Below are positions 32,854 through 59,420 of a DNA stretch of 64,000 nt, in pieces. The translations under genes and the position numbers were made by a program. The first letter of the stretch is position 1. Each line of letters starts with the position of its first letter. This DNA is from Pseudomonas sp. MTM4 (GTDB lineage: Bacteria > Pseudomonadota > Gammaproteobacteria > Pseudomonadales > Pseudomonadaceae): NCBI RefSeq assembly GCF_019355055.1, contig NZ_CP048411.1:1860001-1924000 (forward strand). The letters are read 5' to 3'. The notes below the pieces were generated by a model. That model worked only from the letters and a program-made list of their open reading frames with translations, was not told where the DNA came from and ran no database searches.

Positions 32854-33004
32854 CTTGGGCAAACTCCGGCCCGTCCTGGGGGAGTAGTCTCCGGCGAGCG
32901 TCCTGCTCGCCTGGCATGCGTCAACATACTTGGTCCACAGACCATGGCGCATGCGACCCGCACGGGCTGCTTCAGCAGTCGTGCCCGGTTTGACAAGACC
33001 CATG
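32854..33004 (+). ncRNA. Manganese riboswitch aptamer (yybP-ykoY class)
   Basis: The region between rsmC and the GDT1-type exporter shows the hallmarks of the yybP-ykoY Mn2+ aptamer. GGGGGAGTAG lies at 32878-32887. A P2 hairpin GGCGAGC / GCTCGCC follows at 32893-32911. Then comes TCAACATAC (32921-32929), held in a hairpin closed by GCATGCG / CGCATGC (32914-32920 and 32948-32954). The 3' side ends in TGACAAGACC. The outer stem can form between about 32854-32869 and 32986-32998. In this class Mn2+ binding turns on exporter genes, which fits the gene downstream. Confidence 0.87.
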
Positions 33005-45745: not shown

Positions 45746-45976
45746 ACGAGATTCCTCCAGCAGATTGTTATTGGATGACGTTGCAAAGGTGCCGCGAGTG
45801 TCGACGAGGCGAGTACGGCTCACAATCAAACGGCCATGAATGAATGCCGCGGCATAACGCTGCGGGATGATAGCGAGGTCGGTGCCGGTTCGAATGATCA
45901 AGCGCAACGCTGGCTATTTTTTGTACGACCGTCTGCAAACCAGCCGCAACGGGCTCGGACAGCTCATCTCCCCACC

Positions 45977-46011
45977 TTATCCACAGAACGCCCCACAGCT
46001 ATTCGGGATAA
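45977..46011 (+). repeat. DnaA-box repeat unit 1
   Basis: The 35-base unit follows TTATCCACA-N8-CACAG-N6-GGGATAA. It opens with a perfect DnaA box at 45977-45985 and closes with an inverted TTATCC half. CACAG sits at offset 18. Confidence 0.75.
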
Positions 46012-46079
46012 GTGCAAAACCCCATCTCCGTTTCATCTATTTGCCTCGACTCGGCCTGTTGATGGCGCATTTTCAAAGG

Positions 46080-46118
46080 TTTACATCTATTAAAGACGAG
46101 CTTGGATAAAAAATAACC
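46080..46118. other. AT-rich patch between repeat units 1 and 2
   Basis: About 39 bases rich in A and T, including ATCTATTAAAG and GGATAAAAAATAACC, stand out in a GC-rich chromosome. Such patches serve as unwinding elements at origins, but this one has no proven role. Confidence 0.4.
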
Positions 46119-46168
46119 AGCCAGCTCAACACCGCTATCGGCGCGGCACATAGAAAAGCACGAAGAGC

Positions 46169-46203
46169 TTATCCACAGATCGTTGCACAGCGGACGGGGA
46201 TAA
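46169..46203 (+). repeat. DnaA-box repeat unit 2
   Basis: This second 35-base copy has the same fixed positions: TTATCCACA at offset 1, CACAG at offset 18, GGGATAA at offset 29. It is 192 bases after unit 1. Confidence 0.75.
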
Positions 46204-46304
46204 CTGTACGCACCGCGAGTGACTATCGTAGCCATGGCCATAAACTAAGAGCGACCGACGATACAGCGCGATAACCTTCTTCCAATTTCACAAGGACCGC
46301 GACG

Positions 46305-46391
46305 ATGCCTAACTTCAACTTCTTTCAAACACTGTTCGCCAATTACGCTTCGGCTGTCGCCGGCAGTTGCGCTGGCGAACCGGTCGTTTAA
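46305..46391 (+). CDS. Candidate 28-residue peptide between DnaA-box repeats
   Basis: This short open frame starts ATG at 46305 and ends TAA at 46391. AAGGA lies eight bases before the start, a good ribosome binding site. The peptide begins MPNFNFFQTLFANYASAVAG and ends SCAGEPVV. It is moderately hydrophobic with one Cys and is unlike random GC-rich translation. I do not recognise it. It could be a leader peptide, a small regulator or chance. Confidence 0.4.
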   Translation: MPNFNFFQTLFANYASAVAGSCAGEPVV

Positions 46392-46496
46392 CCGGCCCGC
46401 TTGCCATGCATCGCTTTCTCGGACCCACGGCGGATAAAAATCGAACAATGGCTTACAGCTCAGCTATACCGGCTCCTCCATAGTGTTCGCCGGGGC

Positions 46497-46531
46497 TTAT
46501 CCACAAGCATCTCCACAGTAACCGGGGATAA
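46497..46531 (+). repeat. DnaA-box repeat unit 3
   Basis: This third 35-base copy is 328 bases after unit 2, with the perfect box at 46497-46505 and the inverted half at its end. Twenty-one of 35 positions are identical in all three units. Confidence 0.75.
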
Positions 46532-46638
46532 CTATCTAACTTTCAAGCAGGCGACCACACACCCCGCCCAAACCCGCACAGCTGAAACACGACCACCACG
46601 GTCGCGATGAACGAACTCGCCTGCATCCGCTCGCTCCA

Positions 46639-46731
46639 ATGTTCGAATTCAACTTGAGCTGGAGTATCCGCATGCTTGTCCGTCCTGTTGCGACAACCCA
46701 GGCGCGCGCGCAATCGCCGGGGGTGAAATGA
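46639..46731 (+). CDS. Candidate 30-residue leader ORF overlapping the DUF2726 gene
   Basis: This open frame from ATG 46639 to TGA 46731 overlaps the DUF2726 start codon in an ATGA arrangement. It lacks a ribosome binding site, and its product, beginning MFEFNLSWSIRMLVRP, is not recognised. Translational coupling is possible, but chance is also plausible. Confidence 0.25.
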   Translation: MFEFNLSWSIRMLVRPVATTQARAQSPGVK

Positions 46732-58767: not shown

Positions 58768-58771
58768 CGGT

Positions 58772-58798
58772 TGTTACCCACCCCATCGAGACGTAACA
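58772..58798. promoter_or_regulatory. Candidate CbrB upstream activator site for crcZ
   Basis: The inverted repeat TGTTAC-N15-GTAACA begins five bases after the cbrB stop codon. It lies roughly 120-150 bases before the expected crcZ start, a normal distance for an NtrC-type activator site. Similar TGTTAC/GTAACA palindromes have been linked to CbrB. Confidence 0.62.
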
Positions 58799-58800
58799 GA

Positions 58801-58836
58801 AACCGGGTTCATCGGTAACGGGAACCCGGTTTTTTG
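58801..58836 (+). terminator. Rho-independent terminator of cbrB
   Basis: A perfect 10-bp stem (AACCGGGTTC / GAACCCGGTT) with an 11-base loop ends in a run of T, 33 bases after the cbrB stop. Confidence 0.92.
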
Positions 58837-58894
58837 TAGGCCGAAAAGACGATGAAAAAAGCTAACCAGCTGTTTTATAAGGACTTTCAAAAAC

Positions 58895-58910
58895 TGGCAC
58901 AGCAAATGCT
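58895..58910 (+). promoter_or_regulatory. Sigma-54 promoter of crcZ
   Basis: TGGCAC-N5-ATGCT has the invariant GG and GC spaced by exactly ten bases, the sigma-54 -24/-12 pattern. It places transcription start near 58920, where the CA-rich RNA begins. CbrB with RpoN is the known activator of this gene in pseudomonads. Confidence 0.9.
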
Positions 58911-58919
58911 TTATATCTG

Positions 58920-59295
58920 GCACAACAACAATAACAAGCAGACCCACAATAAGAACAAGACGTACCGGCTCTAGCAGAATAAATACAAGAAGGCGGAGGC
59001 GTAGCTAACTGATTCTTTTGGAGAGGAACTGTCAAATGGGGTTTTGCCCCATAACCAGGCTGAGAACAACAAAAACTGCATAAGCAGAGCCTGAACTGGT
59101 TGGATCATATGATCAATGGCAAGTCAGCGACCAAAGCAATCCGTTTGCTCTTTGCTCCCAATGTAGGAGCAATTCCTGGAAGCGATAGCTGAAAGGAACG
59201 GGTGATCAAACAAAAACAACACGCCCGAAATACTAATAACAACAAAGCACGCGACATCATTTAAAAGGGGAGCTTCGGCTCCCCTTAGTGCTTTC
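58920..59295 (+). ncRNA. crcZ: CrcZ small RNA
   Basis: CrcZ sequesters Hfq (with Crc) and so relieves catabolite repression. It lies between cbrB and pcnB as in other pseudomonads and begins GCACAACAACAATAACAAG. A-rich CA motifs of the AANAANAA type appear at about 58924-58937, 58947-58957, 59063-59073, 59206-59219 and 59234-59246, with a weaker one near 58976-58993. A 9-bp stem with TTCG loop (59265-59286) closes it. Length is about 375 bases, slightly short of the roughly 400 known. The 5' end is inferred from the promoter. Confidence 0.92.
59265..59290 (+). terminator. Terminator hairpin of crcZ
   Basis: AAGGGGAGC and GCTCCCCTT form a perfect 9-bp stem around a TTCG tetraloop. The 3' side has only a short T-containing tail. 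Confidence 0.8.
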
Positions 59296-59420
59296 TGGCC
59301 CCGGCCATTTTTGACACCTCCCCGCGCTTCGTTCACCATCCCGGCTCCCGGTGCTAGAATCCACGCTCGTTCGTGGCCATTCGCCTCGCCACTCAGTCCT
59401 TTCGCCACACAGTGCCTCCC

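Follow-up and report, generated by a model that had tools for sequence, protein, structure and literature searches.

Control of DnaA by DARS elements is documented in E. coli and in related bacteria, Vibrio cholerae among them (PMC4245941, PMC8682772, PMC6090056). According to PMC4245941, gammaproteobacteria that are related to E. coli have conserved both Fis and the core of DARS2, and the comparison in PMC8682772 covers enterics, Vibrio, and Shewanella. In literature searches judged by title or abstract start, neither Pseudomonas nor Stutzerimonas came up with DARS, datA, or arrays of DnaA boxes. Five papers name both DARS1 and Pseudomonas; the relevant passages of three (PMC10218098, PMC5397419, PMC6090056) do not link the two, and the abstracts of the other two concern human disease.

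We used E. coli MG1655 as the yardstick. Its DARS1 core, in the bioD-uvrB interval, reads TAATACACA-TGG-TTATCCACA-GGAAT-AGTGGATAA, and its DARS2 core, in the rppH-mutH region, reads TTCTTCACA-ACT-CTATCCACA-GAAAA-GGTGAATAA. Two lines of evidence support this assignment. The DARS2 deletion primers of PMC4585315, which replace boxes I to III, flank exactly the 35 bp taken here as the core. In addition, Table 1 of PMC11317965 gives these pairs of boxes III and II, for DARS1 as well as DARS2, as sites in DnaA chromatin immunoprecipitation sequencing (ChIP-seq), with another box pair at DARS2 besides the core pair. A different candidate for the DARS2 core, L055:2951-2986, was ruled out because the primers place the core at L055:2636-2670. 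Box I is opposite to boxes II and III, and the spacing is equal at DARS1 and DARS2 (PMC5742627). Boxes I and II are crucial for ADP release at DARS2, and DARS1 is fully active only with the region that flanks its last box (PMC4585315).

The stretch of DNA analyzed here (the window) is 64 kb long, positions 1860001 to 1924000 of a genome that consists of one contig of 4.69 Mb. On its plus strand, three 35-bp modules start at 45977, 46169, and 46497, all in one orientation and without a mismatch to the spaced pattern, just as first annotated; a recount agrees that 21 of 35 positions are common to all three, and the first nine bases of each are indeed a perfect DnaA box, TTATCCACA. This box has no other exact occurrence in the window. 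With one mismatch it occurs 6 times, against a shuffle mean of 5.00, so that single loose boxes are uninformative; genome-wide, the exact box is found 22 times and its backward control 18 times, and thus the signal of the modules lies in their spacing, not in the number of boxes. The spaced pattern, even with up to 3 mismatches, had no match in 100 dinucleotide shuffles of the window, and its exact form occurs genome-wide only at the three window places. The earlier claim that the modules are beyond chance therefore holds for the spaced pattern but not for box number alone. The AT-rich patch reported between units 1 and 2 is there as well (∼48% G+C at 46000-46199). Over 8 kb, the window matches Stutzerimonas stutzeri SD25545 (L122) at 91.3% and a second locus (L180) at 92.7%, which suggests that the genome is that of a Stutzerimonas.

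The motif CACAG, read initially as part of a box, terminates a weak box that has the direction of the first, so each unit holds three boxes; the inverted element at its end corresponds to box I. The layout is thus TTATCCACA, a weaker same-direction box ending in CACA(G), and an inverted box, with a 9-3-9-5-9 spacing in all three window units. Box III is the strong one: mean mismatches for boxes III, II, and I are 0.06, 2.86, and 1.72 among 115 modules of the same genus, and window units 1, 2, and 3 have 4, 2, and 2 mismatches in box II and 2, 2, and 2 in box I. The whole unit extends over ∼100 bp and consists of a Fis-like dyad, a 25-bp conserved flank block, boxes III and II, and inverted box I (Table 1).

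Table 1. Positions of the unit components and of a neighboring reading frame in the window
Feature	Positions	Strand	Basis
Unit 1 Fis-consensus dyad	45912..45926		GGCTATTTTTTGTAC fits GNNYANNNNNTRNNC; starts 65 bp before first box; fixed-offset conservation across 115 genus modules
Unit 1 conserved flank block (-44 to -20)	45933..45957	+	Column conservation; profile score shuffle p 0.0026
Unit 1 DnaA box III, TTATCCACA	45977..45985	+	Perfect
Unit 1 DnaA box II, weak	45989..45997	+	4 mismatches to TTWTNCACA; ends CACA
Unit 1 DnaA box I, inverted	46003..46011	-	2 mismatches
Unit 2 Fis-consensus dyad	46104..46118		GGATAAAAAATAACC fits GNNYANNNNNTRNNC; fixed-offset conservation
Unit 2 conserved flank block	46125..46149	+	Column conservation; shuffle p 0.003
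Unit 2	46169..46203	+	Box III 46169-46177, perfect; box II 46181-46189, 2 mismatches; inverted box I 46195-46203, 2 mismatches
Unit 3 Fis-like dyad	46432..46446		GGATAAAAATCGAAC fits symmetric GNNYRNNNNNYRNNC, not strict T form; fixed-offset conservation
Unit 3 conserved flank block	46453..46477	+	Column conservation; shuffle p 0.003
Unit 3	46497..46531	+	Box III 46497-46505, perfect; box II 46509-46517, 2 mismatches; inverted box I 46523-46531, 2 mismatches
28-aa ORF with LFANYA motif	46305..46391	+	Reading frame between units 2 and 3; neighbor, outside the element

The upstream parts emerged from an ungapped alignment, anchored at the box, of the 115 distinct genus modules (box pattern with ≤2 mismatches) and 88 modules from other Pseudomonadaceae (≤3 mismatches). 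In both sets, a second conserved motif spans -67 to -50, and a weaker block follows at -44 to -20; the conserved columns are few and at fixed offsets, with little conservation beyond -67 to +36. The Fis consensus is symmetric and hence can be written in the form GNNYRNNNNNYRNNC. This dyad starts at -65 in 103 of 115 genus modules and 65 of 88 others (6 and 12, respectively, at the best other offset), including all three window units, where the predicted Fis site is centered 58 bp upstream of box III. The upstream motif also fits the T form GNNYANNNNNTRNNC, the consensus as given in PMC4585315, and the strict T form starts at -65 in 41 of 115 and 18 of 88 modules (4 and 4 at the best other offset). 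When genus loci were anchored on exact TTATCCACA alone, CACA was found at +17 in 96 of 111, GGATAA at +29 in 89 of 111, and the dyad at -65 in 93 of 111, with no other offset above 10, the anchor's own letters aside. A Fis homologue is encoded in the same genome (58% identity; E = 3.7e-26).

IHF was considered for the upstream motif and rejected: in the genus set, the first A and T of ATCAA are less conserved than our cut requires, TTR is missing, and the Fis dyad fits. A hairpin formed by the dyad-like A.GCC/GGC.T at -40 and -20 was likewise rejected. In the genus set, the counts for 10 of 11 column pairs differed by no more than ∼6 from those expected under independence; the remaining pair, -38/-22, gave 69 versus 56.8 expected there but 44 versus 41.1 in the other set. 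We took these counts as no stem. The array interval has no Rfam match at gathering score. Elsewhere in the window, Rfam matches at 58768-59321 and 32866-32973 are the sRNAs P36 and CrcZ and a manganese riboswitch.

The window units, the DARS1 core, and the DARS2 core share the same 9-3-9-5-9 geometry with an inverted last box. The likeness to DARS1 extends into the flank: with a profile built from 130 pseudomonad units, the E. coli DARS1 flank scores 13.9 bits at -44 to -20, in register (shuffle p at the floor of 5e-5), and for the span -49 to -1, just 3 of the 13904 windows in its 7-kb stretch score as high, itself included. The flanks of the window units score on this profile at shuffle p 0.003. 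The DARS2 flank is weak (p 0.09 for -44 to -20 and p 0.012 for -49 to -1). A 105-bp sequence-only profile, R1, trained on 68 array units with the window's own three among them, detects E. coli DARS1 (E = 8e-7) and the DARS2 core (E = 0.0014), both outside its training set, and a second site in the DARS2 region (E = 0.044). At E ≤ 1 it finds nothing in the E. coli datA region (L210), in E. coli oriC, or in the 13.5 kb around dnaA in the genome of the window.

These results suggest, with a probability of roughly 0.55, that the interval is an array of three multiplied, Fis-linked, DARS-like composite elements acting on the nucleotide state of DnaA. This reading draws on the core geometry, the likeness to the DARS1 flank, the Fis-type site, and the absence of a profile match in the datA and oriC regions, and it sharpens the initial proposal, which had offered a datA-like, a DARS-like, and an accessory-origin interpretation side by side. 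The main reason for doubt about DARS-like activity is the weak box II; mismatches in boxes III, II, and I number 1, 0, and 1 at DARS1 and 1, 1, and 1 at DARS2. DARS2 needs IHF, yet a search of the interval 45750-46730 for exact matches to the IHF consensus WATCAANNNNTTR found none, which also counts against the reading. So do the E. coli cores themselves: neither DARS1 nor DARS2 has a Fis consensus at -65 or -66, the placement of the Fis-type site in the array is unlike that at DARS2, and the DARS2 flank is poorly matched. A datA-like site that stimulates hydrolysis of DnaA-bound ATP would likewise be a noncoding cluster of DnaA boxes distant from oriC, with strong and weak boxes in the same direction. 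However, the unit profile finds no counterpart in the E. coli datA region, and minimal datA has an IHF site for which HU is no substitute (PMC5742627); the missing exact consensus here thus weakens the datA-like option, which we regard as quite improbable.

By analogy with the E. coli elements, we infer that DnaA and Fis bind at the array, that nucleotide is exchanged there, and that the array has a role in replication timing. DnaA would load on perfect box III and pair with DnaA on weak box II, as suggested by the box pairs of PMC11317965, and this pair would meet, head to head, the DnaA on inverted box I. In growing cells, Fis at its upstream site would help or gate the reaction, in which the complex is remodeled and the bound nucleotide is exchanged as at DARS1 and DARS2. 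Exchange at the array could then set the supply of ATP-DnaA to oriC, and the array, which lies near mid-replichore, would change in copy number part-way through each replication round.

The initial annotation asked whether the pattern is confined to this interval. Its exact form is, but looser composite units lie at other loci: at E ≤ 1e-4, R1 finds 8 units in the genome, the three of the window included, and a ninth, partial match has an E value of 0.015. The units outside the window occupy four other places with different neighbor genes, two adjoining adenosine deaminase (3826955 and 3827169) and three standing singly (1286017, 1349813, and 2250718). The single units have box II without a mismatch, like DARS1. 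The dyad at -65 is present in both deaminase units and in the 2250-kb unit; it is absent at -65 and -66 from the units at 1286 and 1349 kb, and the 2250-kb unit has no flank block (p 0.16). The parts missing from these single units also count against a DARS-like function. Neither uvrB nor mutH is among the genes read next to the 1286-kb and 2250-kb units, and synteny with the E. coli DARS loci was rejected on this ground. The deaminase units form a Fis-DnaA pair 213 bp apart at 3826955-3827270 (L192), and a similar pair with the same 213-bp distance occurs in genome G008 (L019).

Related units at several loci in each genome are what an ordinary dispersed or mobile repeat would produce. Conservation, however, is confined to a few columns at fixed offsets, with little outside the unit, and the place of the array is syntenic over the genus loci compared; this reading was already disfavored, and we give it almost no credence. 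Hardly more credible is an accessory replication origin, which would account for DnaA boxes together with an AT-rich patch: the unit recurs at four other loci of the genome, the profile matches neither E. coli oriC nor the region of the resident dnaA, no initiator or partition protein was found among eight neighboring proteins scanned with Pfam, and nothing that we saw points to an origin.

Among 97 genomes, the pattern with ≤2 mismatches is present in 63, comprising all 56 of the same genus (own genome included; 1 to 6 matches each) and 7 of 41 others. Two same-genus genomes, G008 and G009, have only a unit of the deaminase-locus type among the matches listed, and they may therefore lack the array. 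The exact 20-letter pattern was found in 52 of the 56 genomes of the genus and in 22 of the 292 other Pseudomonadaceae; a backward-pattern control gave 0 in every group, and a control with 1 base added before the inverted box gave 0 of 56, 1 of 292, and 1 of 348 in all. A scan of named genomes gave at least 120 stretches, 80 of them listed; among these 80, clusters occur in Stutzerimonas and Pseudomonas species, and matches elsewhere are mostly single, chiefly in Proteobacteria. In two stretches from other Pseudomonadaceae (L194 and L195), we observed six-module arrays in which spacings of ∼193 and ∼168 bp alternate, a pattern that tandem duplication of a two-module unit of ∼361 bp would produce.

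The composite unit reaches further. At E ≤ 1e-4, R1 has matches in 58 of 59 Pseudomonadaceae genomes (own genome included, and some of them the source of training units), with 1 to 32 units each. At E ≤ 1e-5, it has matches, mostly one unit, in 49 of 143 genomes of the class, which we take to be Gammaproteobacteria in the GTDB sense, Burkholderiales included (48 of 142 when the own genome is set aside). For 20 of the first 25 nonself rows of this class scan, the middle box is without mismatch in 18 and the dyad lies at -65 in 5 and at -66 in 11 more, counts that lean upwards because the profile includes the Fis part and the best-fitting box triple was taken; the rows left out were two partial matches in G440, one in G511, the second in G466, and one in G392.

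Such abundance, up to 32 units per genome, would also suit the main rival explanation, a DnaA sink, with DnaA nucleating on perfect box III and being titrated by the array, which would delay reinitiation as copies duplicate; in a variant, the weak box II beside a strong box would make the titration preferential for ATP-DnaA. Array units do have a perfect or nearly perfect box III and a weak box II, and boxes 2 to 3 bp apart, several of them strong plus weak, are preferred DnaA pairs in vivo in E. coli (PMC11317965). But titration needs neither an inverted box I, nor an exact 9-3-9-5-9 spacing, nor a Fis site at a fixed offset, nor a DARS1-like flank, and the spacing before the inverted box is strict, with none of the 56 same-genus genomes tolerating an added base. 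We hold a sink to be a serious competitor, although an unlikely one, to DARS-like elements.

The place of the array was compared over 14 long loci of the same genus (L040-L048 and L050-L054). DUF5924 is found on one side in all 14 and DUF2726 in 12, and SDR is on the other side in 11 and was not found beside the array in the remaining 3. The second part of the proposed check, conserved synteny, was thus borne out, though with gaps, and the number of units and their distances vary among the loci. A LOG-family gene (TIGR00730) lies within or beside the array in 9 of these 14 loci, in 4 of 16 long loci from other genera, and in 8 of 18 named loci. This association, together with the regulation of promoters by DnaA in E. 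coli (PMC11317965), would fit a DnaA- and Fis-controlled regulatory region for the flanking SDR, LOG-family, and DUF2726 genes. The flanking genes differ, however: the window has no LOG gene at E ≤ 1e-3, SDR is not constant, and the other units of the genome adjoin different genes. We consider such regulation improbable.

Between units 2 and 3 lies the small LFANYA reading frame, which has no Pfam or NCBIfam match. Inside arrays across the genus (L042, L043, L044, L048, and others), we found 20 peptide variants of 21 to 45 amino acids from the first M, all with LFANYA, in a search that itself required FA-N/S-Y. In L042 and L043, the frame precedes the LOG gene; in the window, it is kept without one.

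The array lies 1.13 Mb from dnaA, in agreement with the earlier statement that dnaA is not nearby. In 16 same-genus genomes, the distance is 21.4 to 26.0% of the contig; G029, where dnaA and the array share a 2.17-Mb contig, was left out of the 16, and there the distance is 1009 kb, ∼21% of 4.9 Mb. In the eight genomes of another genus (g51), it spreads over 14.0 to 26.9%. The constant distance could be explained as well by conserved gene order as by selection. Taken over all loci, no position bias was detected (Kolmogorov-Smirnov [KS] p 0.26; 70 loci in 13 genomes, two lengths rounded). In 13 genomes, 49 of 56 nonarray single or paired loci run with the replication fork and 12 of 14 arrays of at least 3 units run against it, a split from which we conclude nothing because the loci are shared by descent.

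Judged from sequence, these findings suggest that pseudomonads have multiplied a form of replication-timing control. The unit, compact at 100 bp and with predicted sites for DnaA and Fis, is present in 58 of the 59 Pseudomonadaceae sampled. It provides a short list of testable sites, and it may be an evolutionary link between DARS1, through the flank, and DARS2, through Fis. A broader and doubtful idea, to which we give somewhat less weight than to the sink, is that non-enteric Gammaproteobacteria carry a compact Fis-DARS unit that was multiplied in pseudomonads, and that in the LOG/SDR-linked arrays the box strengths were inverted, with a strong box III and a weak box II, turning reactivating sites into ATP-DnaA-selective ones. 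A single family of elements would then serve both arms of the DnaA cycle, on and off.

Among the described systems, DARS1 shares with the array its core geometry, its in-register flank block at -44 to -20, and its intergenic location. DARS1, however, is a single core with a perfect box II, a weaker box III, and no Fis consensus at -65, whereas the array has a perfect box III, a weak box II, a Fis-like site, and units in tandem. With DARS2 it shares the core geometry, a system that includes Fis, and a similar chromosomal position, DARS2 being 20.6% of the chromosome from oriC and the array 21 to 26% from dnaA. DARS2 differs in that its one core is accompanied by IHF and Fis sites within a regulatory region of ∼400 bp (PMC5742627) and in that its flank is not clearly alike; in the array, 50 bp separate the end of the Fis-like site from box III, and the search for an exact IHF consensus found none. 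Like datA, the array is a chromosomal cluster of DnaA boxes distant from oriC, but datA has no match to R1 and contains an IHF site, of which the array has no exact consensus. Finally, each unit resembles the double DnaA box of PMC11317965 in its boxes III and II, a strong and a weak box of like direction separated by 3 bp, and adds to them an inverted box I, a flank block, and a Fis-like site.
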